This document shows positions 2,739 through 28,120 of a stretch of 43,169 nucleotides of DNA, piece by piece. Position 1 is the stretch's first letter. Each line of letters opens with the position of its first letter. The stretch comes from Chloroflexota bacterium (GTDB taxonomy: Bacteria > Chloroflexota > Limnocylindria > Limnocylindrales > CSP1-4), in contig VEOW01000054.1 in NCBI GenBank assembly GCA_012026785.1, positions 1-43,169 on the forward strand. The letters are read 5' to 3'. Under the pieces are notes generated by a model that ran no database searches, had not been told where the DNA came from, and saw nothing but the letters and a program-made list of their open reading frames with translations. The translations under genes were made by a program, and so were the position numbers.

Positions 2739-3725
2739 GTGAAGCCGAGCTTCGGCGTGCTGCTCCCGCAGTTCGGTGAGTACGCCAGCCGCGATACGCT
2801 TCTCCGCACGGCGATGACCGCCGAGCACCTCGGCTTCGACTCGGTGTGGGTTCGGGATCACATCGTCTACCAACCCCGCCCATTCGACGATCAGGATCGG
2901 ACATTCTTGGAGCCGATGGTGACGCTTGCGGCCGTGGCAGGTGTCACCGACCATCTCATCCTTGGAACCGCTTGCCTCATTCCGTATCGCCACCCGATTC
3001 GCACGGCGTTGTCGTTGGGTTCCCTGGAGACGATTGCCGGCGCGGGCCGTGTCATCGCAGGTTTCGGAGCGGGGCTGCGAGACGAAGAGTTCGCCGCACT
3101 TGGCCTAGGCGACATCAAACGCGGTCAAATGCTACGGGAACAAGTGCAGATCATCCGTGAGCTTTGGGCGGGCGGGTCCGTCAGCTAAGCAGGCACGCAC
3201 TACTCATTTGCAGATGTCGACATTCGTCCGGTCCCAACCCGAGTCGGAGGTATTCCCATCTGGTACTGCGGGGAGTCCGAGGCTTCGGTCCGTCGCGCCG
3301 TTGACTTTGCAGAGGGCTGGATGCCCGGGCGTATCACGATCGCGGATTTCCGAAACCGGGTTCACCTCCTTCGGCAGCTTTCAGATGATCGCGGTCGCGA
3401 AACACCCACGATCGGCGTCATCCCCCTGGTGAGCCCGGGGCCATCCTGGGAGATCGGAATGGCTTCAGTTCCGTGGCAAGAGATGATGGCCTTCGAGTTC
3501 GCGGAAGGTCAGTTCGATACCCCGGCGTCGGGCGGTTGGACCTCGCCGAAGGACCTCGATGGGGCGATCCTGGCCGGGACACCAGCTGACATCCTGGAGG
3601 GCGTCCATGGATACCTCGATGCCGGGGTGGAGCATCTTGTGTTCGACCTTCGAGCGCGATTCGCCGACTTGGATGAATGCCTCGCGGCGCTCGGAGAAAA
3701 CGTCTTGCCTCGCCTACGAGGTTGA
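2739..3725 (+). pseudogene. LLM-class flavin-dependent oxidoreductase interrupted by one in-frame TAA (3186-3188)
   Basis: 2739-3188 and 3189-3725 are in the same frame and together align end to end with the intact paralog at 4573-5616. GGSVS*AGTHYSFADVDIRP matches GESVTYEGQFYRFENVDIHP, so the stop sits at a Tyr position. Confidence 0.75.
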
Positions 3726-3750
3726 CACGGTTCGGTCGACGGGATAATGT
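3722..3750 (+). promoter_or_regulatory. Candidate sigma70-like promoter for the IclR-led operon
   Basis: TTGACA (3722-3727), 17-nt spacer, TAATGT (3745-3750); overlapping GATAAT at 3743-3748. Confidence 0.5.
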
Positions 3751-3767
3751 CCAGCTGCTCCATGATG

Positions 3768-3782
3768 CGGAATGCCGTTTTG
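3768..3782. promoter_or_regulatory. Second candidate IclR operator (CGGAATGCCGTTTTG)
   Basis: Shares the 11-mer GGAATGCCGTT with the palindrome at 1454-1468; lies just before the IclR start and downstream of the candidate -10. Confidence 0.4.
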
Positions 3783-3784
3783 AG

Positions 3785-4576
3785 ATGCAGAACATGAGCT
3801 CGGTCGACAAGGCGCTCCAGATCCTCCTCCTGCTGGCCCGCGAGCCGGGCCCATTGGGCGTCCGCGAGATCGGGCGCAGGCTGGGGATGAGCGCGCCAAC
3901 GGTCCATCGCCTGCTCACCACGCTGAGCACGTACGATCTGGTTCAGCACATCAACGGCAAGTCCGAGTACCGGCTGGGTTGGGCCTGCCTGGGTCTCGGC
4001 CGGGCCGTCCTGAGTGGGACGGAGTTCGCCCAAGCCGCACAGGAGATCGCCCGTGCGCTTCGAGACGCGACCGAGGAGACGGTTACCGGGCAGGTCCGCG
4101 TCGGCGGGGAGCAGGTGGTCGTTGTTGAGGCGGAGGGCCTCCACGAGCTACGGCGCCGCGTTGGGGTAGGGCGTCGCATTCCACTCCATGCCGGCGCATC
4201 GGGCAGAGCCATGCTCGCGTTCCTGCCGTCCGAGGAGGTCGAACGCTATCTGGCGCAGCCCCTCACGAAGATTGGTCCGAACACGATCACCGATCCGATC
4301 GAACTCCAGGCCCGATTGGCCGAGGTCCATCGACTCGGCTACGCAACGAGCTTCGAGGAGAGCGTGACGGGCGTCGGAGCCGCCTCCGTGCCGATCTTCG
4401 GAGATGACGGCCGGGTGGCCGGAAGCCTGTCCGTTTCTGGACCGGAGGCGCGGATCGGCGTGGACCTGGAGCAGCGGATCGTGCCTCTCCTGCTCGATGC
4501 CGGCGAGGCGTTGTCGAAGGCGCTCGGATACCGCGCCCCGGAAGGACGCGGCCAGCTCGTGGGATCGGTTCGGTGA
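3785..4576 (+). CDS. IclR-family transcriptional regulator
   Basis: SSVDKALQILLLLAREPGPLGVREIGRRLGMSAPTVHRLLTTL wHTH plus IclR effector domain (LHAGASGRAMLAFLPSEE, SFEESVTGVGAASVPIFG). ATG at 3785 is preferred over the longer ORF from 3677. Confidence 0.9.
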   Translation: MQNMSSVDKALQILLLLAREPGPLGVREIGRRLGMSAPTVHRLLTTLSTYDLVQHINGKSEYRLGWACLGLGRAVLSGTEFAQAAQEIARALRDATEETVTGQVRVGGEQVVVVEAEGLHELRRRVGVGRRIPLHAGASGRAMLAFLPSEEVERYLAQPLTKIGPNTITDPIELQARLAEVHRLGYATSFEESVTGVGAASVPIFGDDGRVAGSLSVSGPEARIGVDLEQRIVPLLLDAGEALSKALGYRAPEGRGQLVGSVR

Positions 4577-5616
4577 GTCCGAGGGAGGAGATGGGATTGG
4601 CAGGGCAAATTCGACGATATGGCCTGTTGCTCCCCCACTTCGGCGCACATGCCTCGCGTGAGAACCTCCTGGAGGGTGCTCGACTGGCCGAGCAACTCGG
4701 ATTCGACTCCGTCTGGGTCCGCGACCACCTCGTGTTCCATCCACATGGCATGGAGGGGCAGGACCGAACGCACGTCGAGCCCTTCGTCACCTTGGCAGCC
4801 ATCGCGGGGGCGACGAACCGGTTGGTCCTCGGGACGGGCTCCCTCATTCCGTATCGCCATCCCATCCACACTGCACTCTCGCTCAGCTCGCTCGAGCGAA
4901 TGGCCGGCCCTGGCCGGGTGATCGCAGGCTGGGGCATCGGCACGTTCGACCACGAATTCGCCGCGGTCGGGCTCGGCGACGTCAAGCGCGCCGACCTGCT
5001 GCGAGAGCAGGTCGATGTCATGCGGCGCCTGTGGACCGGCGAGTCGGTCACCTACGAGGGGCAGTTCTACCGGTTCGAGAACGTTGACATTCATCCCTCG
5101 CCGGCTGACGGGACTATTCCAATCTGGTACTGCGGGAACTCGGTCCTGTCGGTCCGCAAGGCCGTTGAGTACTGCGACGGCTGGATGCCCGGACGGATCA
5201 CCCTGAAGACCTTCAGGAAGCGGGTGGAGCGCCTCGAGATGCTGTCCGCTGAGTACGGCCGCGTGCAGCGACCCGTTGCGGGAGCGATCCCAATCGTGAG
5301 TCCCGGAAGGACGAAGGACGAGGCCCTCGAGTCCGTCAATTGGCGGGAGATGATGCAGCAGGCCATCAGCTCCAAGTGGGAGTTGCCCGATTCCGGCGGC
5401 TGGACGGCGCCAGAGGATCTCGATGGGGCCCTGATCGCCGGCACCGCAGACGACATCGTCGACGCGAGCGAGCGCTATCACGACGCCGGGCTCGAGCACC
5501 TTGTCTACGACCTGCGGTTCCGCTTTGATGGTTGGCTCGACCACATCGCGTTCCTTGGCGAGGAAGTGCTGCCACGGCTGCGGAGGGGTGCTGCTGTCGG
5601 CTCCGTCGGGGGGTAG
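4573..5616 (+). CDS. LLM-class (luciferase-like) flavin/F420-dependent oxidoreductase
   Basis: RYGLLLPHFGAHASRENLLEGARLAEQLGFDSVWVRDHLVF, GRVIAGWGIGTFDHEF, WTGESVTYEGQFY, DGWMPGR. Overlaps the IclR stop by 4 nt. Confidence 0.88.
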   Translation: MSPREEMGLAGQIRRYGLLLPHFGAHASRENLLEGARLAEQLGFDSVWVRDHLVFHPHGMEGQDRTHVEPFVTLAAIAGATNRLVLGTGSLIPYRHPIHTALSLSSLERMAGPGRVIAGWGIGTFDHEFAAVGLGDVKRADLLREQVDVMRRLWTGESVTYEGQFYRFENVDIHPSPADGTIPIWYCGNSVLSVRKAVEYCDGWMPGRITLKTFRKRVERLEMLSAEYGRVQRPVAGAIPIVSPGRTKDEALESVNWREMMQQAISSKWELPDSGGWTAPEDLDGALIAGTADDIVDASERYHDAGLEHLVYDLRFRFDGWLDHIAFLGEEVLPRLRRGAAVGSVGG

Positions 5617-5623
5617 GGCGGAG

Positions 5624-6538
5624 ATGCGGGAAGAGCGCGTCGAGTTCTACAGCTACGGGCAACGGCTCGCCGGACTGCTTCGAATGCCGGACGCGGTGGC
5701 GGGTCGGCAGCCGGTCATCGTTCAGGCACCCGGCTGGCTCGGGCTGGCTGATGCCAAGACATACGAGCCGTGGCACCGCGCCTTCACGGAAGCGGGCTAC
5801 GCCCTGCTGGTCTTCGACTATCGCGGTTACGGTCAGAGTGAGGGCGAACGCGGTTGGATCCTGCCCGATCGAATGGTCGAGGACATCTGGAACGCAGTTA
5901 CGTTTGTTGGCACTCGCGACGACCTCGACCCTGATCGCATCGGTGCATATGGGATCGGTGGGATAGGCGGGGGAAACGTCATCATCGCTGCCGCCCAGGA
6001 TGAGCGTATCCGCTGCGTCGCGGTGCAATCGGTCGTCGCCGATGGCCGCGACTGGCTTCGCCGGATGCGGCGCGAGTACGAGTGGGTCGAGTATGTCGAG
6101 CGCGTTGGGGACGATGCCCGCTCATGGGTTTCGACGGGCGACAGCGAGCTTGTCAATCCTCGGACCGACATCATGGTTGCCACTCCGGAGCGGCAGGCGT
6201 ACACGAACAAGGGCGATGTCGATACCCGCATGGAGCCCCAATTTCACCTCCAGAGCGCGGCAGCGCTGATGCGGTACCGACCACTTGACCACGTGCCTCG
6301 TCTGTCGCCCCGGGCGCTACTGCTGACCAGCGTCGCCGACGACTCGGTGACCCCCGAAGACCATGCGTTACGCCTGTACGAGGCTGCCGGCCCGCCCAAG
6401 CGGCTGATCCGCCAGACCGGCACCACGCATTACCGCTCGTACACCGACAACTACGAGGTGCTGGCCCGCGAGCTCGTCAATTGGTACGACCGCTACCTGA
6501 CTGCCGCACCCATCAACGCACGGGAGGACCAGGGATGA
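5624..6538 (+). CDS. Alpha/beta hydrolase fold protein lacking a canonical GxSxG
   Basis: APGWLGL, FDYRGYGQSEG, GAYGIGGIGGGN at the elbow, late DSVTPEDH and QTGTTHY. Paralog at 21088-22056. Confidence 0.82.
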   Translation: MREERVEFYSYGQRLAGLLRMPDAVAGRQPVIVQAPGWLGLADAKTYEPWHRAFTEAGYALLVFDYRGYGQSEGERGWILPDRMVEDIWNAVTFVGTRDDLDPDRIGAYGIGGIGGGNVIIAAAQDERIRCVAVQSVVADGRDWLRRMRREYEWVEYVERVGDDARSWVSTGDSELVNPRTDIMVATPERQAYTNKGDVDTRMEPQFHLQSAAALMRYRPLDHVPRLSPRALLLTSVADDSVTPEDHALRLYEAAGPPKRLIRQTGTTHYRSYTDNYEVLARELVNWYDRYLTAAPINAREDQG

Positions 6539-8025
6539 ACAGCCGAGCCGCCGAGCTCATCGTCCGCTCCCGGAGGATCCTCACACCGGAGGGGTGGCGG
6601 GACGGTGCGATCGTGGTGCGGGATGGCCGAATTGCAGAGATCGCAGCGCCCGAGAACGAACCGCCCGCCGATCGGCGCGTCGACGCCGTTGACCAGGTCG
6701 TCGTTCCCGGGCTGATCGACTCCCACGTGCATCTGCGAGACCCGGGCTTCACCGACAAGGAGGACTACACATCGGGAACGCGGGCTGCGGCCGCGGGCGG
6801 GGTAACGACGGTTCTCGACATGCCGAATGTCCAGCCGCCGACGACCACGGCCGAGCGGCTCACGGCGCATTTCGCCAATGCGGCCACGAAGTCAATCGTT
6901 GACTTCGGCCACAACGCCGCCGCCACGATTCCCGAGGAGATCCACGGCCTGGCCGCGGCGGGCGCGACCGCCTTCAAGGTGTTCATGATGGCTGACGTGG
7001 GTCGCGACTACCCCCACATGCCAGGCGTCGCGGTGGCTGATCACGCCACCCTCCTGCAGATCTGCGAGCAGGTCGCTGCCACCGGTCGCCCGCTCTTCGT
7101 CCATTGTCACGACCAGTCGATCTACGAGCTGTTCGTGCAGCGCGCTTGGCAGACCTGGGGACGCGACTACCGATCCTATGCGCGCGCTTGGCGCGAGGGC
7201 GAGGGACTCGTGGTCGACTCAGGCGTCTCGACGATGCTGCTGCTCCAACGGGAGACGGGTGTCCGCCTCCACATCCTCCACCTCAGCACGATCGGTGGGG
7301 TCCGAATGATCGCGCAGGCAAAGGCGGAAGGCCGCCAGGTCACGGCGGAGGTGAATCCGCACGCCCTTTTCGTGGCCAACTCCTGGAACAACCTCGAGAA
7401 GCTCGGGCCCTACGTACTGGGCATGTGGATCCCAGATCACCATGCGGCCGCGATTCGTGAAGCCACGCTGAATGGCATCGCGGACGTGATCGGCACGGAC
7501 CATTCCCCGCATACCCTGGCCGAGAAGGAACAGGGCTGGACCGACATGTACGCCACACCCGGCGGCAGTCCCATCATCCAGCATTACCTCTCACTGTTCC
7601 TTACCGAGGTGAACAGGGGCGCCTTCACCCTCGAGCGCGTCGTCGAGCTCTGTTCCACCGCCCCTGCGAAGCTGCTCGACCTTTATCCAAGGAAGGGCGC
7701 CATCACTCCTGGCGCCGATGCGGACCTCGTGGTCATCGACATGGACCGCGAGATGGTCATCCGCGCCGCCGAGAGCTACTACAAGTGCGGCTGGACGAAT
7801 CTCGAGGGCCGGGCAGTGAAGGGCGTGCCCGTCATGACCGTCCTTCGAGGTCGGGTGATCTTCGAGGACGGCGAGGTCACCGCTGAACCCGGCTATGGGC
7901 AGCTTGTCCGCCCGAAGGGCGGGCCAGAGGTTGATGGACACACCAGCCTCACGCCCGACGTCACGGTCGCCCGACCAGTCAGCGACCTCAGCGTTAGCCT
8001 TGTGCGCCGAGCAGGTAAGGAATGA
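6535..8025 (+). CDS. Hydantoinase / dihydroorotase / allantoinase-family cyclic amidohydrolase
   Basis: VVVPGLIDSHVHLRDPGFTDKEDYTSGTRAAAAGGVTTVLDMPN, TAFKVFM (candidate carboxylated Lys), ILHLST, GTDHSPHT. 4-nt ATGA overlap with the upstream gene. Confidence 0.88.
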   Translation: MNSRAAELIVRSRRILTPEGWRDGAIVVRDGRIAEIAAPENEPPADRRVDAVDQVVVPGLIDSHVHLRDPGFTDKEDYTSGTRAAAAGGVTTVLDMPNVQPPTTTAERLTAHFANAATKSIVDFGHNAAATIPEEIHGLAAAGATAFKVFMMADVGRDYPHMPGVAVADHATLLQICEQVAATGRPLFVHCHDQSIYELFVQRAWQTWGRDYRSYARAWREGEGLVVDSGVSTMLLLQRETGVRLHILHLSTIGGVRMIAQAKAEGRQVTAEVNPHALFVANSWNNLEKLGPYVLGMWIPDHHAAAIREATLNGIADVIGTDHSPHTLAEKEQGWTDMYATPGGSPIIQHYLSLFLTEVNRGAFTLERVVELCSTAPAKLLDLYPRKGAITPGADADLVVIDMDREMVIRAAESYYKCGWTNLEGRAVKGVPVMTVLRGRVIFEDGEVTAEPGYGQLVRPKGGPEVDGHTSLTPDVTVARPVSDLSVSLVRRAGKE

Positions 8026-9443
8026 CCGACGCGCTGCCGCTGGATCTGCTCGTTCGCGGTGGGACCGTCGTCACGGATGGTGCCGTTCGTCGAGCCGACG
8101 TGGGCGTCCGCGGCGGCGTGGTCGCCGGAATTTGGGAGGACGGCGGGCCGCAGGCTGCAGCCAGCGGCGTCGACGCCACAGGCAAGATCGTCATGCCCGG
8201 CGCGATTGATGCGCACTTCCATACCAACACGGGTTGGGCGCAGATGGCCGTCAAGGCGGATGATCCGACTTCCGCCACGCGGAGTGCCGCAGCGGGTGGC
8301 GTCACGACCGTCATCACCTTCGTCTGGGGCAATGCCGGACAGCCGCTGCCCGAGTTCTTGGGCGCCTACTTCGAGATGGCGAGTCAGCTCTCGATCACGG
8401 ATTTCAGCGCGCATTGCGGGGTGCGCCCCGAGCCGGCCCTGATCGAACAGATCCCCGAGGCGATCGCCATGGGGGTGACCTCATTCAAGTTTCACTACGC
8501 CTATCGCCGAACGTCGCAGGGTCGGACGACGGACGATCGTGATCGTCTCGCGGCGATGCGACTCATCGAGCGCCACGGCGGCCTCGCCCTGTTCCACTGC
8601 GAGAACGGCGAGATCACGGACTTCCTCGAGGACGAGCTCGGAACAGCCGGCAAGGTTGGCTACGAACACTACCTCGCCTCGCGACCGAATCTCGCCGAGG
8701 CCGAGACGGTTCACCGAACGATGCTCCTGTGCGAGCTGACCGGCTGCCCCGTCTACATCGTCCATACCAGTGCCCGGGAGAGTGTCGCCGAGATCGTCGC
8801 CGCGCGCGCGCGCGGGCTACCGGTCCATGCCGAGACATGCCCGCAGTACCTGACGCTGACGAATGATGCTGTCCTGGAATGGGGCCCCCTCGCGAAGGTG
8901 GCTCCCCCGCTCCGGACTAAGGCCGACGCGGAGGTGCTGTGGCAGGCCGTTGCCCGTGGCGAGGTCGAGGTGGTCGGTAGCGATCACTCGGCGAACCGGC
9001 GGGAGGACAAGGACGCTGCCCGGGACGACTTCCGAAAGGCGCCGTTCGGGACCCCGATTGTCGAGTTGATGGTGAACCTCCTGTACTCCGAAGGCGTCGT
9101 GGCAGGCCGCCTGAGTCTCGAGCGTTTCGTCGATGCGGTCACCGCCAGCCCCGCGCGGCTGTTCGGAATGTACCCGCGGAAGGGGACGCTCCAGGTCGGT
9201 GCCGACGCCGACATCCTGATCTGGGACCCGGACGCGTCGTGGACTGTGCGAGCCGCGGAGCTGGTGAACCCGGCTGGTTACAGCATCTTCGAAGGCCGCA
9301 ACTTGCGCGGCCGGGCGTGGCGGTCGTGGCTTCGCGGTCAACCGCTGCTGACGGAGGCGGGCGTGGTCGCCGCGCCGGGGCATGGCCGTCCTGTCGCGCG
9401 AATGCCACGGCCGGGATTGGAGGGGGTGCAGGGTGCTGCTTGA
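8022..9443 (+). CDS. Second hydantoinase/dihydropyrimidinase-like amidohydrolase
   Basis: VMPGAIDAHFHTNTGW, AAAGGVTTVITF, TSFKFHYAYRR, YIVHTSARESV, GSDHSANRREDK, PRKGTLQVGADADILIWDPD. ATGA overlap. Confidence 0.86.
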   Translation: MTDALPLDLLVRGGTVVTDGAVRRADVGVRGGVVAGIWEDGGPQAAASGVDATGKIVMPGAIDAHFHTNTGWAQMAVKADDPTSATRSAAAGGVTTVITFVWGNAGQPLPEFLGAYFEMASQLSITDFSAHCGVRPEPALIEQIPEAIAMGVTSFKFHYAYRRTSQGRTTDDRDRLAAMRLIERHGGLALFHCENGEITDFLEDELGTAGKVGYEHYLASRPNLAEAETVHRTMLLCELTGCPVYIVHTSARESVAEIVAARARGLPVHAETCPQYLTLTNDAVLEWGPLAKVAPPLRTKADAEVLWQAVARGEVEVVGSDHSANRREDKDAARDDFRKAPFGTPIVELMVNLLYSEGVVAGRLSLERFVDAVTASPARLFGMYPRKGTLQVGADADILIWDPDASWTVRAAELVNPAGYSIFEGRNLRGRAWRSWLRGQPLLTEAGVVAAPGHGRPVARMPRPGLEGVQGAA

Positions 9444-9906
9444 GATTGCCAAGTCGGTCACGCTCGACCAGCCCACCGACACCGTGTGGGAAATCGTGCG
9501 CGTGCCGGAAACCGTTGCGGCTTGCCTTCCGAACATCCGTGAGTTCGAGCGACAGGGAGAGGGTGCGACATACGCCGCGACCATCGAGGACAAGCTGGGC
9601 CCGTTCAAAGTCGAGGTGCCGGTGACCATCGAGGTCGGCGAGGACACGCAGGATCGTCGGATGACGGCCAACGTCGCCGGCAACGACAAGCGCGGGCAGG
9701 CCCGGGTCCGTGGTGAGGTTGCGGCCTCAGTCGTAGCTACTGACGGGGGATCTGTCCTCGAACTGACGTCGCGGATCGAGGTCCTCGGACGGCTGGCAAC
9801 GCTCGGCGCGGTGCCGATGCGACGGCGAGCCGATCAGATCTTCGACGTGTTCGTCCGCAACCTCTCGGCGCGGCTCAGCGCGCCCACGAGCGGACCGGAC
9901 CATTGA
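9433..9906 (+). CDS. CoxG-like SRPBCC-family protein
   Basis: LEIAKSVTLDQPTDTVWEIVRVPETVAACLPNI and the CoxG-like body (EDKLGPFKVEVPV); adjacent to Mo-hydroxylase genes. GTG start inferred. Confidence 0.75.
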   Translation: MLLEIAKSVTLDQPTDTVWEIVRVPETVAACLPNIREFERQGEGATYAATIEDKLGPFKVEVPVTIEVGEDTQDRRMTANVAGNDKRGQARVRGEVAASVVATDGGSVLELTSRIEVLGRLATLGAVPMRRRADQIFDVFVRNLSARLSAPTSGPDH

Positions 9907-10385
9907 GTCCCACCGCGCCAGCCGAGATGCTCACGATGACGATCAACGGTCGCCGGGTGAGCATTGATGCCGACCCAAGCGAGTCACTCGCGTATGTGCT
10001 CCGGGAGCGCCTTCGGCTGACGGGCACCAAGATCTCCTGCGACGTCCAGGTCTGTGGCGCCTGCACCGTCCTCGTCGACGGGCTTCCGGTCAGCTCGTGC
10101 ACCTACCTTGCCTACGAGGCCCGGGGCCGCGAGGTCCTCACGGTGGAAGGGCTCGCCCATACGGACGGCGCGCTCGATCCGCTGCAGCGCGCGTTCATCG
10201 AGGACAACGCCTTCCAGTGCGGCTACTGCACTGGTGGCATGCTCCTCGCGGCGCACGCCTACCTTGCCGACGAGCAGGACGGCGACAGCGGCGAGAACGT
10301 GTTCGAGGCGCTCGCCGGAAACATCTGCCGATGCACCGGCTACGTGCCCATCGTTGCAGCGGTGCTGCGCGTCCGAGACGGCTAA
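9903..10385 (+). CDS. Mo-hydroxylase small subunit, [2Fe-2S] (CoxS/XDH-type)
   Basis: CDVQVCGACTVLVDGLPVSSC and FQCGYCTGGML ... GNICRCTGY. TTG start with TTGA overlap. Confidence 0.9.
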   Translation: MSPTAPAEMLTMTINGRRVSIDADPSESLAYVLRERLRLTGTKISCDVQVCGACTVLVDGLPVSSCTYLAYEARGREVLTVEGLAHTDGALDPLQRAFIEDNAFQCGYCTGGMLLAAHAYLADEQDGDSGENVFEALAGNICRCTGYVPIVAAVLRVRDG

Positions 10386-10386
10386 C

Positions 10387-13300: not shown

Positions 13301-13647
13301 GACTCGGGGTCGCGCTGCGCGAGGAGCTCATCTACGAGGGCCAACAGCTCCTGAACGGCTCGCTCCTCGGCTATCGCGTCCCAGGCTTCGGTGACCTCCC
13401 GGATACGGTGGCGGGCATCCTCGTCGAGGGCCAGGACGGGATCGGACCCTATGGAGCGAAAGGCCACGGCGACGGCTCGCTGAGCTCGATGTCCGCGGCC
13501 GTCGCCAACGCTCTTCATGCTGCGCTGGGCGTTCGGCTCCATCAACCGCCGTTCACACCGGAGCGGGTTTGGCGTGCTCTTCGAGAACGTGAGGCGGCGG
13601 CGGCGGCCACCGGCGCGACGGCGGGCAGCAGCGGTGGGGTTCGCTGA
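10387..13647 (+). CDS. Fused FAD-binding (CoxM-like) and molybdopterin-binding (CoxL-like) subunits in one polypeptide
   Basis: N-terminal part has ATLYAGGTELLLAMKQG, ATGTLGGNLA; C-terminal part has VPRTDGPSKVTGQAVYTADV, FVGGGFGSKSYTK, SSYRGFGGFH, ELGQGSRTVLAQIA, GIGPYGAKGHGDGS. No stop at the junction (about 11230-11340). Confidence 0.88.
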   Translation: MPSYPYPFKILQPASVAEAAQLIVADPDATLYAGGTELLLAMKQGGLRFETLVDLKTVPGLTGLGVQSNRLLIGALVTHRAIARSPLVRARLPELADLESRIANPRVRATGTLGGNLAFAEPHSDPATLLMALDAEVASAGPSGDRVLPIGDLIAEPYETILERGEILREIAIPLLAATQRIAYHKVQLHERPMLGIAFRLDLNDAGSRVDAARLVVGAASPVPRRSPSAEALLIGSVDDLEDRLLSAAALLANEAELVDDEEGSADYKRHLIEVHVARLGRRLLGSEDGPEAGAPDAGALVRSWRESQRHEPKPGFRVVGHSVPRTDGPSKVTGQAVYTADVRVPGMTYAKVLRSPVAHARIRSIDAAPARSAPGVVGILLGEHLRALASPRYGHAVRDHWILAVEKVRYVGEPVAVAIAETEPQAQHALELIDIQYEELEPVMTAETALADGAPLIHEEQYETGASPGHVNLEAIAERSNLLSHDLLKWGDVDSAFARADIVVEGEYYYPMAFAYPLEPYVAVADYQDDMLTVYSCGQHTYMVRRDLVDVFGLPLSRVRVITPFVGGGFGSKSYTKIEPLTAVCSWHVRRPVRLELTVEETVLTTRSDDARIQLRTAADATGRLIARQARCLLNSGAYAENSLLVSAKTAARLVGPYALEAVDLESRAAYTNTAPASSYRGFGGFHATLASEVQLDELAERLGIDPLEIRLRNLAPPGTVFYPGKRPMTADAAGDVSLVAEALDWGTPRPRGRGLGMAINAIDAGAAPVGRSEVRVHGDGSLTVLSGSAELGQGSRTVLAQIAAEEFGVDLARVRVVQSDTAVTPFARSTGADRTTTMEGTTVLLACRDAKAQLQEMAQDIWEAPPELVTLEPTGVRLADTDERMGWGDVIGRYFRQRDMEIIGRGHIRPVGDWGLLPPFWELPLAGVEVDADGETGDWRLRRLVTLGDVGLAINPAMAEGQDLGSAIMGLGVALREELIYEGQQLLNGSLLGYRVPGFGDLPDTVAGILVEGQDGIGPYGAKGHGDGSLSSMSAAVANALHAALGVRLHQPPFTPERVWRALREREAAAAATGATAGSSGGVR

Positions 13648-14510
13648 TGCAGCCGTTCGAGCTCCTCCAGCCGCGAACGCTCGAGGATGCCCTGGATCGG
13701 CTTGCCGACGACGAGGAAGCGCGGCCGCTGGCCGGAGGAACGGCGCTCGTCGTGCTCATGAAGCATGCGCTGCTGCGACCCGAGCGGCTCGTCAATCTCA
13801 AGCGGATCCCCGCGCTCCAGGGCATCGATTGGAGCTCGGAGACGGGCCTTCGAATCGGCGCCCTCACGACCATCCGTGAGGTCGAACAGCACCAAGCCGT
13901 GCGAACCTGGTTTCCCGCTCTCGCCGAGGCCTGCCACGTCGTCGCCAACGTGAGGATCCGCAACCTCGCCACGCTCGGTGGGAACCTCGCCCACGCAGAC
14001 TACCAATCGGATCCGCCAGCGATGCTCATCGCGCTCGGAGCACGTGTGCGGATTCGTTCGGTGAGCGGTGAACGCGAGGAGCCTCTTGAGACCTTCCTCG
14101 TCTCCGGCTATCAGACAACCCTGGAACCAGGCGAGCTTGTAACCGACATCCTCGTCCCGCCGCCGACCGCTGGTCGACGAATGCAATACCTGAAGTTCAC
14201 GACCCGGTCCGCCGAAGATCGGCCGTGCGTCGGCGTCGCCGTCAGCCTCGGGCTCGAGGGCACGGCCTGCAGGGACCTTCGGGTCGTCGTCGGAGCAGTC
14301 TCCTCGACTCCGGTTCGAGTCGCCGAGGGCGAGGAGCTCGCGACGGGCAAGGTCCTGACCCCTGATCTCATCGACGAGATCGCGGGGCGGGCCGCTTCGG
14401 CGGTCGACCCGATCGGCGACGTCCGCGGATCGCCCGAGTACAAGCGACGGCTCGTCCAGGTGCTCGTCAGGCGATCCCTGCTCGGGTCCGTCACGGAGGT
14501 GTCAGCTTGA
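13647..14510 (+). CDS. Mo-hydroxylase FAD-binding medium subunit (CoxM-like)
   Basis: RPLAGGTALVVLMKHALLRPERLVNLKRIP, IRNLATLGGNLAHADYQSDP. Overlaps the previous stop. Confidence 0.9.
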   Translation: MQPFELLQPRTLEDALDRLADDEEARPLAGGTALVVLMKHALLRPERLVNLKRIPALQGIDWSSETGLRIGALTTIREVEQHQAVRTWFPALAEACHVVANVRIRNLATLGGNLAHADYQSDPPAMLIALGARVRIRSVSGEREEPLETFLVSGYQTTLEPGELVTDILVPPPTAGRRMQYLKFTTRSAEDRPCVGVAVSLGLEGTACRDLRVVVGAVSSTPVRVAEGEELATGKVLTPDLIDEIAGRAASAVDPIGDVRGSPEYKRRLVQVLVRRSLLGSVTEVSA

Positions 14511-16816
14511 CCGCCATCGGAACGAGCGTCGCTCGAGCGGACGGACCGCTGAAGGTCACTGGCCAGGTCCAGTACACGGTCGATACGCAGTTGCCTGGCA
14601 TGCTCCACGCCAAGGTCCTGCGCAGCCCATATCCCCATGCGCGCGTCCTGGCCGTGGATGCGACAGCCGCAGCGGCACGACCCGGCGTGGTGGTCCTGAC
14701 GGCGGCTGACCTCACGAACCTCGACCACGCATTCGGCGTGGCCCTGCGCGACCAACCCATCGTCGCGATCGACCGAGTCCGGTTCGTGGGTGATCCGGTC
14801 GCGGCCGTCGCGGCCGATACGCCCGAGGCGGCCGAGGCTGCGCTCGAGTTCATCGACGTGGAGTACGAGCCCCTCGAAACCGTCATGGACCCCGAGGCGG
14901 CCGCTGCCGACGACGCGCCGGTACTCCACCCGGTCGAGCGGCCACGAGCACCGATGTTCGTCGGATGGCCCGCCGAGCGCTTCCGCGGGAGTCTCAACGT
15001 CTGTTCGGGCTATCACGTGGAGCAGGGCGACCTCGATGCGGGATTTGCGAGCGCCGACCACGTGTTCGAGGACACGTACCGGGTCCCGCCGATCCACCAC
15101 GGTAACCTCGAGCCCCATGCCGCCGTGGCGAGCTGGGATCATCGCGGGCACCTGAACGTCATCAGCTCGACGCAGAGCCCATCGATCGTGCGCTTGCAGC
15201 TCGCTGAGATCTTCGGTCTCACGGAGAACCAGGTTCGCGTCGTCGTGCCGTACGTTGGCGGCGCCTATGGCTCGAAGGTGTACGCGAAGATCGAGCCCCT
15301 CGTCGCGGCGATCGCGCGCAAGGCCGGACGTCCGGTGCGCCTCGTTCTCACTCGAGAGGAAGTGTTCGCCACGGCAGCGCGCCATGCCTGCACCGTACAC
15401 ATCCGCACAGGAGTCCGGAACGACGGGACGATCGTCGCGCGCGAGGTCCGGGCGTTCTATGACACCGGCGCCTACGCGGACACCGGCCCAAGGGCATCCA
15501 AGAAGGGTGGCTACCTCGCGGGCGGTCCGTATCGCATCGAGCACCAGAGCCTCACGTCGTACTGCGTGTACACGAACAAGGCGCCGGCCGTCGCCTACCG
15601 CGGCTTCGGCGTTCCGCAAGTCGTCTGGGCCTACGAGTCGCAGATGGATGACATCGCCGCGCGCCTCGCGATCGACCCATTGGAACTGCGGCGGCGCAAT
15701 CTCATCCGCGACGGCGACACGTTCGTGACTGGAGACGTGCTTCGGAACCCGGGACTTGACGAGGCGCTCGAGGCGGTGGCCGAGGCGGGCGATTGGGGTT
15801 CCCCGGTCCCGGAGGCCCGCCCGGGATTCGCGATCGGACGCGGCGTTGCCTGTGCGATCAAGAGCACGTCGACGCCGTCGAACTCCGCAGCCTCCGTTCG
15901 CCTCAATGCCGACGGCTCCGTCCATCTCCTCACGAGCAGCGTAGAGATCGGCCAGGGCTCCACGACGGCGCTCGCGCAGGTCATCGCCGAGACGCTCTCG
16001 ATCCCCGTCTCCAGGGTGACCGTCAGCCTGCCCGATACGGACGTTACGCCGTTCGACCAGTCAACGATCTCCAGCCGGACGACGTTCAGCGTGGGCCGCG
16101 CAGCAACCGACGCCGCGGCGAAGATCCGTCAGCAGCTCATGAGTCTCGCTGCGTCGCAGCTCGAGGCAGCCGTGACGGACCTCGACGTCGACGAGGGCAG
16201 TGTGTTCGTCCGGGGCTCCCGGGACCGGAGCCTGACATTCGCCGAAATCATCCGGCGCCATTTCGGATCGCCAGCCGGAAGCCTCTTCGGAGACAGCGTC
16301 TTCCAGACCCGGGGTGGTCTCGACCCGCTGACCGGCAAGGGCAAAGCCTCCGCGACATGGTTCTACTCGGCCGCAGCGGCCGAGGTCGAGGTCGATCTCG
16401 AGACCGGTAAGGCCCGTGTCCTTCGAATTGCCACATCGGCCGACGTCGGTAAGGCCATCAACCCCGCGCAGTGCCACCTTCAGAACGAGGGCTCGATGCT
16501 CACGGCGCTCGGCTCGGCACTGTTCGAGGAGGTCGTGTACGACGCCGGTCAGCCAACGAACTCGAGCTTCCTGGATTACGGCATGCCCTCGCTCGAGGAT
16601 CATCCGCTCGAGTTCCACTCGATCCTCGTGGAACACCCGAGCGAGGACGGCCCCTTCGGTGCTCGGGGGGTCGGCGAGTCGGTCATCTCGCCGGTCGCAC
16701 CGGCGATCGGCAATGCGGTGGCGGCCGCCCTCGGTGGAGCTCGAGTCCGCGAGCTGCCGATCTCGCCGGAGCGCGTGCTCGCAGCCGTCGACCAGCAGCC
16801 GGAGGCTCGCGCATGA
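14507..16816 (+). CDS. Mo-hydroxylase large subunit (CoxL/XDH-like)
   Basis: VARADGPLKVTGQVQYTVDTQLPG, YVGGAYGSKVYAK, VAYRGFGVPQVVWAYESQ, EIGQGSTTALAQVIAE, DGPFGARGVGES. Lacks the AYxCSFR loop of form-I CO dehydrogenase. Confidence 0.9.
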   Translation: MTAIGTSVARADGPLKVTGQVQYTVDTQLPGMLHAKVLRSPYPHARVLAVDATAAAARPGVVVLTAADLTNLDHAFGVALRDQPIVAIDRVRFVGDPVAAVAADTPEAAEAALEFIDVEYEPLETVMDPEAAAADDAPVLHPVERPRAPMFVGWPAERFRGSLNVCSGYHVEQGDLDAGFASADHVFEDTYRVPPIHHGNLEPHAAVASWDHRGHLNVISSTQSPSIVRLQLAEIFGLTENQVRVVVPYVGGAYGSKVYAKIEPLVAAIARKAGRPVRLVLTREEVFATAARHACTVHIRTGVRNDGTIVAREVRAFYDTGAYADTGPRASKKGGYLAGGPYRIEHQSLTSYCVYTNKAPAVAYRGFGVPQVVWAYESQMDDIAARLAIDPLELRRRNLIRDGDTFVTGDVLRNPGLDEALEAVAEAGDWGSPVPEARPGFAIGRGVACAIKSTSTPSNSAASVRLNADGSVHLLTSSVEIGQGSTTALAQVIAETLSIPVSRVTVSLPDTDVTPFDQSTISSRTTFSVGRAATDAAAKIRQQLMSLAASQLEAAVTDLDVDEGSVFVRGSRDRSLTFAEIIRRHFGSPAGSLFGDSVFQTRGGLDPLTGKGKASATWFYSAAAAEVEVDLETGKARVLRIATSADVGKAINPAQCHLQNEGSMLTALGSALFEEVVYDAGQPTNSSFLDYGMPSLEDHPLEFHSILVEHPSEDGPFGARGVGESVISPVAPAIGNAVAAALGGARVRELPISPERVLAAVDQQPEARA

Positions 16817-17286
16817 AGGTCGGGGTCCAGATCAACGAGCGGGAGCTCGAGCTCGAGGTCGCTACGAACAGCACTTTGATCGATCTGCTCCGCGAGGACC
16901 TCGGCCTTCGGGGCACCGTAGAGGGTTGCGGCGTCGGCGTCTGCGGCTCCTGCACGGTCCTCGTCGACGGCCGACCCGTGAGCTCCTGTCTCGTCCTGGC
17001 GGCGGATGTCGACGGTCGTGTGGTGACGACCATCGAAGGGCTGGGCCGCAACGGTGCGCTCGACCCGGTCCAGGAGGCATTCCTCGAACATCAGGCATTC
17101 CAGTGCGGCTATTGCACGGCAGGAATGATCATGGCCGTCAAGGGCCTGCTGGCCGAGAATCCTCGACCCAGCGCCGCAGAAGCGAAGGATTACCTGAGCG
17201 GGAACATCTGTCGCTGCGGCACGTATGAGGAGGTCCTCGGCGCGGTCGCCACGGCTGCCGCCTCGTCTGACGGCGGAGGAGACTGA
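16813..17286 (+). CDS. Mo-hydroxylase small subunit, [2Fe-2S] (CoxS-like), second copy
   Basis: EGCGVGVCGSCTVLVDGRPVSSC and FQCGYCTAGMIMA ... GNICRCGTYEE. ATGA overlap. Confidence 0.9.
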   Translation: MKVGVQINERELELEVATNSTLIDLLREDLGLRGTVEGCGVGVCGSCTVLVDGRPVSSCLVLAADVDGRVVTTIEGLGRNGALDPVQEAFLEHQAFQCGYCTAGMIMAVKGLLAENPRPSAAEAKDYLSGNICRCGTYEEVLGAVATAAASSDGGGD

Positions 17287-17288
17287 CG

Positions 17289-18641
17289 ATGCCCACCGAT
17301 TTCCGAAGCTTTCTCCGTCTGCTCGAAGACAAGAACGACCTCGTGCACGTGACACGCGAGGTGTCTCCCGACTTCGAAGTCGCCGCCGGGATGCGGCGGA
17401 CTTCGGACCTGAAGGGACCTGCCCTGTGGTTCGATCACGTCACGGGTTCGGGCATCCCGGCCGTGGGAGCCGTGTACGGGGTCCGGCGCCGGGCCATCTG
17501 GGGTTTCGACACGACCGACGCCGAGTACCCGGACAAGTTCATGAACGGGCTCCGAAACCCGATCGCGCCGCAGGTCGTCGAGGATGGGCCATGCAAGGAA
17601 GTCGTCCTCCTGGGGGACGACGCCGACTTCGGCTTGCTCCCGATCTGCAGCCACAACCGGCTCGACAACGGACGCTTCATCACGATGGGACTGACCATCG
17701 CGGCCCACCCCGAGTTCGGGACCAACGTATCGATCAGTCGGATGCAGATCCACGATGGCAAGCATGCTGGCATCCTCAGCGTGCCGCCCCAGCACCTGGG
17801 CGTCTACTTCCAGGAATTCGAGGCTCGCGGCGAGTCGCTGCCGATGGCCGTTGCCCTCGGCGTGGATCCGTACACGACGATGGCCTCGGGCTTCAAGGGC
17901 AACATCTACCTCGACGAATACACGATCGCCGGTGGCTGGATGGGCCGTCCGCTCGACGTCGTCAAGTGCGAGACCAGCGACGTTCTCGTGCCCGCGGAGA
18001 GCGAGATCGTCATCGAAGGCGAGCTCGTTGCCGGTGAGCGTCGCCTGGAAGGTCCGTTCGGCGAGGTTCCTGGCTATTACAGCCCGGCGGGCCAGCGCCC
18101 CGTGTTCCGCCTGAAGGCGATCACGCATCGACAGAACCCGGTCTACCTGGCCGGGCTGACCGGTCGGCCGCAGACGGACAACCACGTCATCCGCGACCTG
18201 ACGTATGAACCCATCATCCGCGATCGAATTCGGCAGCTTTGCCCTGGCGTGCGCGACGTCTATGCCATCGAGGGCAGCGCGGGCAAGCACATCGCGGTCT
18301 CGATCAAGCCGACCTTCGCTTCCCAGGCGCGTGACGTCATGATGGCCGCCCTGACGACTGAGCGGATCCGTCCCAAGCTCGTCGTGGTCGTCGAGGATGA
18401 CATCGACGTCCGCGACCCTGCGCAGCTTCAGTGGGCGATGACGTTCCGTGTCCAGGCAGATCGGGACGTGCTGATCATCCCGGGCATGGTCGGCCAGGCG
18501 CTCGATCCCTCGACGCCGAAGCCCGGCGTCGGAACGGTCATGGCCATCGATGCGACGCGACCGTACGGCGAGCCGTTCTGGGAAGTGACGGACGTCCCGG
18601 GCGCCGAGTCATTCGAGATCCCACTGCCTGCTCGATCGTGA
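17289..18641 (+). CDS. UbiD-family (prFMN-dependent) decarboxylase
   Basis: FRSFLRLLEDKNDLVHVTREVSPDFEVAAGMRR, NVSISRMQIHDGKHAGI, LEGPFGEVPGYY, VVVEDDIDVRDPAQLQWAMTFR. Confidence 0.88.
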   Translation: MPTDFRSFLRLLEDKNDLVHVTREVSPDFEVAAGMRRTSDLKGPALWFDHVTGSGIPAVGAVYGVRRRAIWGFDTTDAEYPDKFMNGLRNPIAPQVVEDGPCKEVVLLGDDADFGLLPICSHNRLDNGRFITMGLTIAAHPEFGTNVSISRMQIHDGKHAGILSVPPQHLGVYFQEFEARGESLPMAVALGVDPYTTMASGFKGNIYLDEYTIAGGWMGRPLDVVKCETSDVLVPAESEIVIEGELVAGERRLEGPFGEVPGYYSPAGQRPVFRLKAITHRQNPVYLAGLTGRPQTDNHVIRDLTYEPIIRDRIRQLCPGVRDVYAIEGSAGKHIAVSIKPTFASQARDVMMAALTTERIRPKLVVVVEDDIDVRDPAQLQWAMTFRVQADRDVLIIPGMVGQALDPSTPKPGVGTVMAIDATRPYGEPFWEVTDVPGAESFEIPLPARS

Positions 18642-18669
18642 TGGTTCGTGAGCCACCCACGCCCGTGCG

Positions 18670-19665
18670 CTACGTAAGGACCGCCTCGTCCTGAGACACC
18701 TTCGGCAGAACATCCCCGGCAAGCATCTCGATCTGCTCCAACCAATCTGGGAAGCGCATCCGGAAGTCGAAGACGAGAAGATCGCAGCCGATCTGCTGGT
18801 AACGCCGAACCCCACGGATGATGTCCTCCGGGGTTCCGGTAAGGATCGAGCCATCCAGCTCGTCGATCCTCGTGAACTCGCCACCCTGCGGCTTGAGCCA
18901 GAACTTCTGGGCGTTGGCGTTCTTGATCAAGCCGGGGACGTTCAGGCGGTCGAGGGCAGCCTGGGCAGAATCGCCGATGCTCGTCACCGGCACAGCGCCG
19001 GTCATGATCATCGGTTTACCCTGCTCCGCGCACATCTCCCGGATCTTCGCTACCCGCGCCTCATAGGTCGGAAAGGTGATCCGACCGGGCAGCCATCCCT
19101 CGCAGAAGTCGACGGCGAGCCGGGCGGACGCAGGTGTGGCACCACCCCACCAGACCGGAACCGGGAACAGCGGCTGAGGCTGAAGGTCGACGTCGGTAAA
19201 GTCATAGGTCTCCGAGTGCCAGTCGACCGTCTCCCCTGTCCACAGGCGCCGCGCGATCAAGGTCTGTTCGCGCATCAGCTCCGGCCGCTTGAGATCGCCC
19301 TGTCCGATCACGTCGAACTCGTGCTGGAAGGTGCCAGAGCCGATCCCGAGGTCGAACGGGCGCCGAGTGGCCCACGACAGCGACGCGACACTGTAGGCCA
19401 TGAGGATGGGGTGCCGGAAGGGGATGATCGTCGCTGCCCCAAGGCCAATCCGGTCCGTCTTTGCGGCCAATAGCGTCAGCGTGATGAACGGCTCGATGAA
19501 CGTTCGATCTGTCCCCTCCATGCCGTGGGGGTGGAAGACGAGATGGTCGCGCACCCATAGAGAGTCGAAGCCGAGGCGGTCGGCCAGCTGGGCACCCTCG
19601 ATCAGCAGATCCTGGTCAGCGTCCTCGCCGAAATGCGGCACGAGGAGCCCGAAACGGGTGGGCAT
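18670..19665 (-). CDS. LLM-class flavin-dependent oxidoreductase, third copy
   Basis: MPTRFGLLVPHFGEDADQDLLIEGAQLADRLGFDSLWVRDHLVFHPHGMEG; clearly related to 4573-5616. ATG at 19665 preferred over the upstream ORF extension. Confidence 0.87.
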   Translation of the reverse strand: MPTRFGLLVPHFGEDADQDLLIEGAQLADRLGFDSLWVRDHLVFHPHGMEGTDRTFIEPFITLTLLAAKTDRIGLGAATIIPFRHPILMAYSVASLSWATRRPFDLGIGSGTFQHEFDVIGQGDLKRPELMREQTLIARRLWTGETVDWHSETYDFTDVDLQPQPLFPVPVWWGGATPASARLAVDFCEGWLPGRITFPTYEARVAKIREMCAEQGKPMIMTGAVPVTSIGDSAQAALDRLNVPGLIKNANAQKFWLKPQGGEFTRIDELDGSILTGTPEDIIRGVRRYQQIGCDLLVFDFRMRFPDWLEQIEMLAGDVLPKVSQDEAVLT

Positions 19666-19672
19666 CGACGTC

Positions 19673-21091
19673 CTACTCCTTGCTGCTCGTGGGTGGCTGC
19701 TCGCGCTTTCCGATGCCCTCCGGGCGCGCCTGGCGGCCCCACCCGGGCTGGCCGACGACGTGTCCGTCTTGGTAGACGACCTGGCCACGGACGATCGTGG
19801 TCTCGACGACGCCGCGTACGCGGCTCCCTGCGTATGGCGTCCAGCCGATCTTGCTGAGGACGATGTCATCGCTGATCTCGAAATCGGCTTCGAGGTCGAC
19901 GATCGCGATATCGGCGTCGCAGCCGACCTCGAGGCGGCCCTTCCTGGCGAGGCCGAAGACGCGCGCCGGCGCCGTGGCGACGAGCTCGACCACGCGCTCG
20001 ATTGAGATCAGCCCGCGGTGCACAGCGTCGAGCAGCAGTGGCACGTAGAACTGCGTGGACGGCGTGCCGGTATGGGCCTTCCAACCATCGGTCCACCCCG
20101 GCTCCTTCTCGTCGCGCGTGTGGGGTGCATGGTCCGTCGAGACGAGGTCGATCGTTCCATCGTTGAGGGCTGTCCATAGCGGCTCGGTATTGTGCTCGGG
20201 CACGTAGTAGCTGAGCGCGTACGAGCCGAGCCGCTCGATCGTCGCCCAGTCATTCCCAAGGAACAGAGCCCAGGGGTTTACCTCCGCGGTCACCCGCTGC
20301 CCTGCCGCCTTTGCCCGCCGCAGCTGCTCAATGACCCCACTCGACTGAGTGTGCAGCAGGTGGAGCGGCGTGCCCGTCGCCTGCTGGATACGCAGCAGGA
20401 CGGCGACGGCTGTGTCCCAGATGATCCCGTCGTACGCACTGTAGGCCCGCGCGTACGCGCGCGCGTCGCGTTCGCCGCGCTGCCAATACCCCTGTTCGAT
20501 GTGGCTCATCAGGCCCTGGTCATGGGGATGGACCATCAACGGCAGCCCGGTCTCCCCAACCGCCTCGAAGATCCCGAGCAGCTCGCCGTGGTCGTGGACG
20601 CCGATCCCGGGCATATGAGGGTAGTCACGGCCTGTGTCGACGACCATGAAGACCTTGAATGCGGCAATCCCACGACTGGCCATGCTCGGGAACTGATCGG
20701 GTATCGTCGCGGCCGCGTTGACGTTCCAGTCAATGATCGAGCGCTGGTCGTAAAGCGCCAGCATCCCGTCCAGTCGCTCGAGGGTGTTCGGCGGTGGCTG
20801 GACGTTTGGCATGGCAAAGGAGGTCGTCACGCCCCCGGCCGCTGCGGCCGATGTCGCCGTGACGATGTCCTCCTTGTGCGTGAAGCCCGGCTCGCGATGG
20901 TGGGAGTGGACGTCGATCGCCCCCGGCAGGACGTGCCGCCCGGTCGCGTCGATGGTTCGCTTCGCGCTGGCGTCCGCACCCGATTCGAGAAGCGCGGCAA
21001 TGCGAGTGTCGATGATGGCGAGGTCCGCGAGCGTTCGTCCAGATGCGGTAACGAGCGTTCCCCCTCGGATGACGAGGTCGTAGGTCGTCAT
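19673..21091 (-). CDS. Hydantoinase/dihydroorotase-family cyclic amidohydrolase, third copy
   Basis: MTTYDLVIRGGTLVTASGRTLADLAIIDTRI, VLPGAIDVHSHHREPGFTHKEDIVTATSAAAAGGVTTSFAMPN, AAFKVFMVVDTGRDYPHMPG, STDHAPHTRDEKEPGWTDG. Confidence 0.88.
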   Translation of the reverse strand: MTTYDLVIRGGTLVTASGRTLADLAIIDTRIAALLESGADASAKRTIDATGRHVLPGAIDVHSHHREPGFTHKEDIVTATSAAAAGGVTTSFAMPNVQPPPNTLERLDGMLALYDQRSIIDWNVNAAATIPDQFPSMASRGIAAFKVFMVVDTGRDYPHMPGIGVHDHGELLGIFEAVGETGLPLMVHPHDQGLMSHIEQGYWQRGERDARAYARAYSAYDGIIWDTAVAVLLRIQQATGTPLHLLHTQSSGVIEQLRRAKAAGQRVTAEVNPWALFLGNDWATIERLGSYALSYYVPEHNTEPLWTALNDGTIDLVSTDHAPHTRDEKEPGWTDGWKAHTGTPSTQFYVPLLLDAVHRGLISIERVVELVATAPARVFGLARKGRLEVGCDADIAIVDLEADFEISDDIVLSKIGWTPYAGSRVRGVVETTIVRGQVVYQDGHVVGQPGWGRQARPEGIGKREQPPTSSKE

Positions 21092-22056
21092 GCGATGGCC
21101 GAGGTCTCGGAGCTTGCGGGTCGGGATAGGCGGAGCGTGACCGCCGATGCATCGTCCTCGCGAACGATGACCTCCCCGACGTCCAGGTAGCGCTGAAACC
21201 ACTCGACGATCAGCGGGCTGACGAGGTCCCGGTAGTCAGCGTAGGCGGCATAGTGAGTCGTGCCGGTCTGGATCACGAGTCGCTTTGGTGACCCAGCGCG
21301 TTCGTACAACGCGGCGGCATGATCCTCGGGCGTTGTCGCATCTTTCTCCACGCAGATGAGCATCAGCGCGCGTGGAGCGATCCGATCGACAAGGTCGAGC
21401 GGCCGATACGCCATGATTGCCTCTGCGCTCGCGAGCTGCACGTCTGTCGGAACGCGGCCATCGACGTCCGCCTTGACAGTCGTCGTCCGTCGCTCGGGCG
21501 TAGGCACCATGATCTCCTCGCGCACGGAGACGAGGCGTGACTCGCCGGTCGCGGCGCGTTGTCGGCGGTCATCCTCGACCTGCTGGAGGAAATCCAGCCA
21601 TTCATGCTCACGGCGCATCCGCCTGAGCCATTCCCGCCCGTCCGCGATCGGCACCTGGCTCACCACGGCCTTGACCCGCGAGTCGAGCGCCGCGACGCAG
21701 ACGGCATTGCCGCCGCCTGTACCGCCAGAGCCGAACGCGCCAATTCGTTGTGAGTCGATCTCAGGCCGCGTTTCGAGAAAGGAGTTGGCGGCCCGCCAGT
21801 CCTCGACCTGTGCCATCGGATCCAGATAGCTGGCATCGCCAGCCGAGCCACCAAAGCCGCGATAGTCGAACACCAGGACGGCGATGCCGGCGGCAAGAAG
21901 GGCCTGATGATATGGCTCGTACAGCTTCGCTCCACGAAGGCCAAGCCATCCTGGACCCTGGACCACGGCCGGAACCGGCCGCGGTCGCGCAGGCAGCTTC
22001 AGCGTGCCTGCGAGCGCCAAGCCCCGGCTATGGAAAGAAACCTCCTCGACCGTCAT
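21088..22056 (-). CDS. Alpha/beta hydrolase fold protein, second copy
   Basis: Same architecture as 5624-6538 (GPGWLGL, FDYRGFGGSAG, GAFGSGGTGGGN, IADGREWLRRMRREHEW, TTPEDH, QTGTTHY). ATGA overlap with the hydantoinase. Confidence 0.82.
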   Translation of the reverse strand: MTVEEVSFHSRGLALAGTLKLPARPRPVPAVVQGPGWLGLRGAKLYEPYHQALLAAGIAVLVFDYRGFGGSAGDASYLDPMAQVEDWRAANSFLETRPEIDSQRIGAFGSGGTGGGNAVCVAALDSRVKAVVSQVPIADGREWLRRMRREHEWLDFLQQVEDDRRQRAATGESRLVSVREEIMVPTPERRTTTVKADVDGRVPTDVQLASAEAIMAYRPLDLVDRIAPRALMLICVEKDATTPEDHAAALYERAGSPKRLVIQTGTTHYAAYADYRDLVSPLIVEWFQRYLDVGEVIVREDDASAVTLRLSRPASSETSAIA

Positions 22057-23341: not shown

Positions 23342-23462
23342 CTTGACCGCCGTCGCGCCGCTACGTTCGAACACGCCATCTACTGACCTCCCTCGAGTGC
23401 CTCGTCGTGCAATGTACTCGACGGGACGCAAGGAATTGCAGGCGGGTTCAATGTGATCGACC

Positions 23463-25387: not shown

Positions 25388-25452
25388 GGACGGGCTCTGG
25401 CTCGCCCTCCCGCGGCTGCAGCCTGTCGACCTCCAGCGGCACAATCATTCGG

Positions 25453-26289: not shown

Positions 26290-26298
26290 GGCGCGGCG

Positions 26299-27968: not shown

Positions 27969-27971
27969 AGG

Positions 27972-27992
27972 TTTTCGGATCGTCGCCGAAAA
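27972..27992. repeat. Inverted repeat TTTTCGG-ATCGTCG-CCGAAAA
   Basis: Perfect 7-bp arms with a 7-nt loop, starting 3 nt after the permease stop; no clear T-tract. Confidence 0.45.
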
Positions 27993-28048
27993 TGTATCCA
28001 AAGCACCGATCGAGCGGTTGCAGTGAGATGTGGATCGAGTACAGAATG

Positions 28049-28078: not shown

Positions 28079-28120
28079 GATCCTCCCCGGTGCGGGGAGT
28101 CTGCGAGGAGGAGACAGAAG

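Follow-up and report, generated by a model that had tools for sequence, protein, structure and literature searches.

Two diverged sets of F420-type hydride transferase, hydantoinase-type amidohydrolase and nucleophile-less alpha/beta hydrolase genes in a Chloroflexota contig: a conserved module with a possible role in N-heterocycle catabolism

Mo-hydroxylases convert N-heteroaromatic compounds to lactams and hydantoinases open cyclic amides. Reductive pyrimidine catabolism employs dihydropyrimidine dehydrogenase, dihydropyrimidinase and beta-ureidopropionase, reduction being followed by the action of a hydrolase of the hydantoinase family. F420-dependent LLM enzymes are abundant in soil bacteria, most of them without a known substrate. 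The npd system for picrate acts on a nitroaromatic substrate and is not known to include a hydantoinase. Picrate degradation is an example of the addition of hydride to electron-poor aromatic rings by LLM enzymes using F420H2 (PMC8498797), and in this it shares enzyme family, cofactor and chemistry with what is proposed below. Reduction of hydroxylated pyridines followed by hydrolytic ring opening is also a known logic, and the nicotinate pathway of Eubacterium barkeri and Azorhizobium, with a Mo-hydroxylase, 6-hydroxynicotinate reductase and enamidase, hydroxylates, reduces and hydrolyses in this way (PMC9304392). The hxn pathway of Aspergillus is related to it.

The window analysed here (the whole stretch of 43,169 nucleotides) makes up the whole of contig C123 in a metagenome-assembled genome (MAG) of 3.77 Mb. 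Its likeness to the nicotinate pathway is one of logic only, as that pathway has a reductase other than an F420 LLM, opens the ring with a different enzyme and has no described serine-less alpha/beta hydrolase. Reductive pyrimidine catabolism uses an NAD(P)H flavoprotein reductase where the window has an F420 LLM, and the window hydantoinases fall below the dihydropyrimidinase cut-off. The Rut cluster also holds both an LLM and an alpha/beta hydrolase; however, RutA is an FMN monooxygenase and the window LLM scores far under the RutA model. The UilS-type alpha/beta hydrolases are the best family match, UilS being the top NCBIfam match of both window hydrolases (134 and 131 bits against a cut-off of 400), but the nucleophile serine is missing in the window proteins. 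No paper describing this combination of enzymes was found in a literature search.

Gene content of the window

The first-pass annotation had described the three families as two sets in opposite orientations, each member paralogous to its counterpart. Positions and strands were confirmed for both sets and the gene bounds refined (Table 1). Set A has the order LLM2–hydrolase–hydantoinase (4591–8025, + strand) and set B the order hydrolase–hydantoinase–LLM3 (22056–18670, - strand). The counterparts are indeed paralogous, with identities between A and B of 51% for the hydrolase, 44% for the hydantoinase and 45% for the LLM. Convergence of the sets at about 18.65 kb, around two Mo-hydroxylases and a UbiD, was also borne out: the facing gene ends lie at 18641 and 18670 beside the UbiD gene, with the two Mo-hydroxylases between the sets. 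The arrangement of both sets is far beyond chance.

Table 1. Features of the window relevant to the two gene sets.
Feature	Coordinates	Strand	Remarks
LLM1	2739..3716	+	LLM hydride-transferase family pseudogene; in-frame TAA at 3186-3188
IclR-family regulator	3785..4576	+	5' of set A; Pfam
LLM2 (set A)	4591..5616 (alternative start 4573)	+	F420-type luciferase-like hydride transferase; TIGR03619, trees, fold
Alpha/beta hydrolase A	5624..6538	+	No nucleophile; elbow GIGGIGGGN
Hydantoinase A (HYD_A)	6535..8025	+	Hydantoinase-like cyclic amidohydrolase; intact metal ligands
Hydantoinase-like C	8022..9443	+	TIGR02033, 386 bits against cut-off 393
CoxG-like protein	9433..9906	+	Syntenic with module A in relatives
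Mo-hydroxylase 1, 2Fe-2S subunit (CoxS type)	9903..10385	+	
Mo-hydroxylase 1, fused FAD and Mo-cofactor subunits (CoxML)	10387..13647	+	Belongs to module A in relatives
Mo-hydroxylase 2	13647..17286	+	CoxM 13647-14510, CoxL 14507-16816, CoxS 16813-17286
UbiD-family decarboxylase	17289..18641	+	Not seen beside the module in other loci
LLM3 (set B)	18670..19665	-	F420-type luciferase-like hydride transferase; TIGR03619 138.5 bits (below cut-off), trees
Hydantoinase B (HYD_B)	19673..21091	-	Hydantoinase-like cyclic amidohydrolase
Alpha/beta hydrolase B	21088..22056	-	No nucleophile; elbow GSGGTGGGN; AlphaFold pLDDT 89
GntR/FCD regulator	22592..23560 (called start 23374)	-	Kept near set B in relatives (53-67%)
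NMT1/SsuABC-type ABC importer	25321..29281	+	Such importers frequent beside the module in other loci
Tandem cupin genes	39633..40695	+	Five Acidimicrobiia loci have homologues (53-63%) close to the module

A third LLM had been noted at 2739. It is present but is a pseudogene with an in-frame stop. An independent assembly, FR_1, is nearly identical to the window (99.2% over 16.5 kb), and it contains the same 140 bases around the TAA, so a sequencing error was rejected and LLM1 is taken to be a genuine nonsense pseudogene. It is closest to LLM2 (57%), its neighbour in the tree with moderate support (82). The FR_1 record carries the label Acidimicrobiia.

Set A is flanked by the IclR regulator and by the additional hydantoinase-like gene C, whose product is far from both HYD_A and HYD_B and has no counterpart in the other module loci. 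Nor were counterparts of the window's UbiD, Rieske, BphC and NahE-like genes found near the module in other loci, and these genes were therefore excluded from the core. The cupin genes at 39.6–40.7 kb were considered as a single frameshifted gene; this was rejected, as there are two genes in relatives too.

Conservation and divergence of the module

The neighbourhood was examined by a pattern scan of GTDB species genomes from which the best 80 loci were taken. This sample includes some closely related genomes, two loci from FR_1 (L057 and L121) and a few contigs that are also among those taken from relatives. A hydantoinase lies within 6 kb in 63 of the 70 loci with a serine-less hydrolase, an LLM within 6 kb in 64 and both in 58. 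About half (33/70) have a Mo-hydroxylase within 10 kb. Only one of 11 loci of the serine-bearing outgroup has both partners, and that one adjoins a serine-less copy. Actinomycetota, Chloroflexota and Acidobacteriota all have module loci. Gene order (hydrolase–hydantoinase–LLM) and spacing are shared by the loci of Microbacterium, Agromyces, Jiangella, Leifsonia, Amycolatopsis, Mycolicibacterium, Acidimicrobiia and Chloroflexota. Cox genes are interleaved with the module in the Acidobacteriota loci. No relative was found on viral contigs. The relatives found on plasmids do not exceed 38% identity, the level of the serine-bearing outgroup.

A reverse test covered 100 relatives and the MAG itself. 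The hydrolase occurs in 17 of these 101 genomes (the copy in one of them, G053, having the serine), the hydantoinase in 14 and LLM3 in 15, and all three families are found together in 14. LLM3 and HYD_B are never seen in a genome that lacks the hydrolase (0/101). At the thresholds used none of the 14 genomes of the same genus has the hydrolase, hydantoinase or LLM3, which indicates that the region is accessory.

Quick trees, with SH-aLRT support only, were made for each family. In each of them A, Chloroflexota B, Actinomycetota and Acidobacteriota sequences form separate clades whose members largely correspond between families, and the pairwise distances correlate as well (r = 0.72, 0.75 and 0.83; 0/2000 permutations each). 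The matching A and B clades indicate that the duplication is old. Three relatives have both modules, two of them (G019 and G045) with A and B on a single contig, 9–16 kb apart, and the third being G017; the A modules of all three have no adjacent LLM and retain CoxG–CoxS–CoxML. The earlier suggestion that the three families were duplicated together thus holds in that they diverged together, but the event is ancient and, with LLM absent from several A modules of relatives, it was not a local triple duplication. The three families diverged together long ago, and the window retains both sets and did not create them.

The proposal of joint action by the three families would have failed if the counterparts had been unrelated acquisitions and co-occurrence elsewhere had been rare. 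What was found is the reverse, namely frequent proximity (the 58/70 loci), co-occurrence at the genome level and mirrored trees and distances. The three-family set is a real, conserved and widespread catabolic module.

Features of the three enzymes

Each of the six metal ligands of the hydantoinases (HxH, carboxylated Lys, two His and Asp) is retained in 84 or more of the 86 proteins aligned. HYD_A and HYD_B fall under every equivalog cut-off shown (D-hydantoinase, allantoinase and dihydroorotase); for HYD_A the scores are 286 against 358 for TIGR03178 and 237 against 393 for TIGR02033.

LLM2 matches the F420 LLM family TIGR03619 with 173.8 bits, above the cut-off of 166.9, and LLM3 falls below it with 138.5 bits. 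In profile and fold searches the F420-dependent Mer comes first and Fgd and Adf rank high, with FMN enzymes such as SfnG close behind. Of the 42 module genomes searched for CofD, 41 have it. The one without, Ruania, has CofE, as do all 15 module genomes examined for that gene (Ruania included); thus 42/42 have CofD or CofE. In the MAG itself both genes are on contig C158. CofH was not found in this MAG, which is 89% complete; F420 may be salvaged, or the CofH gene may be absent from the assembly. Among 150 Microbacteriaceae genomes, 68 have CofD and 4 have the module, all 4 with CofD, though such genome-level co-occurrence alone is weak support given that the ability to make F420 is widespread in these phyla. 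Physical linkage of F420 genes to the module is stronger evidence. A putative F420-0 ABC transporter (TIGR03868, 460 bits) lies close to the module in ten loci of Microbacterium, Agromyces and related organisms, abutting it in Microbacterium and Agromyces, and several of these ten loci also contain CofE, CofC and CofD. CofD or CofE is near the module in loci L058 and L095. As judged from sequence and fold, the module LLM probably belongs with the F420 enzymes, and not with RutA.

The description of the alpha/beta hydrolases as serine-less was correct and applies to the family as a whole. Alignments show an elbow of F-G-[STIM]-G-G-[TI]-G-G-G-N in the module hydrolases, which varies slightly and has an insertion of one residue relative to GxS-xGG in the outgroups. 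All readable module members fit FG[STIM]G[GA][TIL]G with the inserted residue, as in FGSGGTGGGN in place of the serine elbow, and the serine is kept in the outgroup. There is no conserved Ser, Thr or Cys, the A members including Ile/Ile and Met/Ile combinations. The Thr of GSGGTGG was considered as a substitute nucleophile and rejected, since it is Ile in some A members and Leu in locus L045. His268 and Asp239 are invariant. The family has therefore lost its nucleophile and retained His and Asp. The AlphaFold model of hydrolase B is confident, with a pLDDT of 89.

Proposed reaction sequence and alternatives

The enzyme families and the neighbouring genes suggest N-heteroaromatic compounds as a candidate class of substrate. 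We propose, with about even confidence for and against, that the two anciently diverged modules, each comprising an F420-dependent LLM, a hydantoinase-type amidohydrolase, a nucleophile-less hydrolase and often a Mo-hydroxylase, serve the reductive-hydrolytic catabolism of N-heterocycles. The NMT1-type ABC system would import the substrate and the Mo-hydroxylase would hydroxylate it adjacent to the nitrogen, giving a lactam or imide. Hydride from F420H2 would then be delivered by the LLM to the electron-poor ring, removing its aromaticity, and the reduced cyclic amide would be hydrolysed by the hydantoinase. The serine-less hydrolase may act through its His–Asp pair as a general base, for tautomerisation or for cleavage of a C-N or C-C bond, either ahead of ring opening or following it; enzymes of this fold can work with a His–Asp pair in the absence of a nucleophile (PMC10548524). 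An M20 hydrolase, ALDH and other enzymes would complete the pathway, and the two copies of the module may be for two related substrates. In outline, the module probably reduces an N-ring with F420 and then opens it hydrolytically. The analysis establishes the conservation of the module, the missing nucleophile, the intact metal ligands and the F420 link, from which the class of substrate, the sequence of steps, the direction of the hydride and the task of the hydrolase are inferred. More tentatively, we suggest an aerobic and widespread route in which F420H2 dearomatises hydroxylated N-heterocycles for the hydantoinase, together with a new class of alpha/beta hydrolase reliant on His and Asp only, the nucleophile having been lost by insertion in the elbow.

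The hydride may flow in the other direction. LLHT enzymes catalyse oxidation and reduction alike (PMC8498797) and, with Fgd and Adf among the nearest folds, the LLM could be a similar F420-dependent dehydrogenase, acting on an alcohol or hemiaminal after ring opening or producing a cyclic imide for the hydantoinase. In most loci the LLM comes after the hydrolase and hydantoinase, and none of the adjacent genes indicates the direction. We regard an oxidative role as fairly unlikely. Less probable again is that the serine-less hydrolase works as an HOD-type, cofactor-free oxygenase, opening the ring with O2 and leaving the products to the hydantoinase and LLM. Such a role would suit the N-heteroaromatic context, and dioxygenases of this fold need only the His–Asp pair and can have Ala at the elbow (PMC10548524); however, the solved structures closest to the hydrolase are the ordinary hydrolases 7qjm, GrgF and PA2218/YcjY and not HOD, and the elbow has been altered by an insertion, which goes beyond replacement of Ser by Ala. 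The first-pass annotation likened the combination of flavin monooxygenase and alpha/beta hydrolase to RutA/RutD logic, without claiming orthology. Read in this way, the LLM would be an FMN monooxygenase splitting a cyclic ureide by oxidation, with removal of the product by the hydrolase. This reading rests on the same broad families paired with a cyclic amidohydrolase and is very improbable, since the RutA model TIGR03612 gives LLM2 26.5 bits where 498.3 are required (29.9 for LLM1, the best window LLM), the evidence above favours F420, no RutD model is among the NCBIfam matches at E <= 1e-3 and no flavin reductase is among the main window ORFs scanned.

By tying one clade of F420 LLM enzymes to a hydantoinase, a Mo-hydroxylase and a nucleophile-less hydrolase, the module narrows the chemistry to be considered to cyclic amides and imides. 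If the reductive-hydrolytic route is correct, the catabolic uses of F420 would extend past picrate-type compounds, the hydrolase would be a natural example of an alpha/beta hydrolase possibly switched in reaction type, and the route would be one for N-heterocycle breakdown that we did not find described in the literature. The chemistry is testable in culturable Microbacterium, Agromyces, Jiangella and Mycolicibacterium. The three-enzyme set occurs in many soil and freshwater bacteria.

LLM1 and the aromatic-degradation genes of the contig

LLM1, the third LLM gene of the window, is a pseudogene with an in-frame TAA at 3186-3188; the same codon is present in the independent assembly L121. The module was not found in 14 genomes of the same genus. 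The dioxygenase, Rieske oxygenase and aldolase genes form an aromatic upper pathway which is separate from the module though carried on the same contig.

Features of the window and of module loci elsewhere
Feature	Location	Remark
IS481-like transposase	window 296-1345	left end of contig
LLM1	window 2739-3716 (+)	pseudogene
BphC-type extradiol dioxygenase, Rieske oxygenase alpha + beta, DHDPS/NahE-like aldolase	window 29019-33119	
Tandem cupin genes	window 39633-40193 + 40195-40695	
AAA ATPase	L041:13829-14716	after LLM3 (set B LLM), conserved B operon
Fumarase/aspartase-type lyase, class II aldolase	L106:13311-15463	M. iranicum
ALDH, TPP enzyme	L102:13296-16491	Amycolatopsis
F420-0 ABC transporter, CofE/CofC/CofD	L079:3438-9772	
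Third HYD_B-like hydantoinase, with another LLM	contig C70:2296-6350	window's own genome

Neighbours of the module

The B operon order ABH-HYD-LLM-cupin-AAA-MFS-M20 is conserved across several genera. The window's tandem cupins have 53-63% homologues about 10 kb or less from the module in Acidimicrobiia (L061, L069, L072, L090, L120) and are more weakly related to the two-cupin protein downstream of LLM3 in Chloroflexota B operons. The lyase and aldolase adjoining the module in M. iranicum, with TctABC close by, and the Amycolatopsis pair adjoining it are clues to a ring-opened product.

Apparent F420 precursor salvage

The transporter and its Cof genes also occur at L071 and L076, and no convincing CofH was found in these Microbacterium and Agromyces genomes. 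Salvage of F420 precursor thus appears to be linked to the module there. In the window's own genome, a third HYD_B-like hydantoinase (54%) lies within 2 kb of another LLM.
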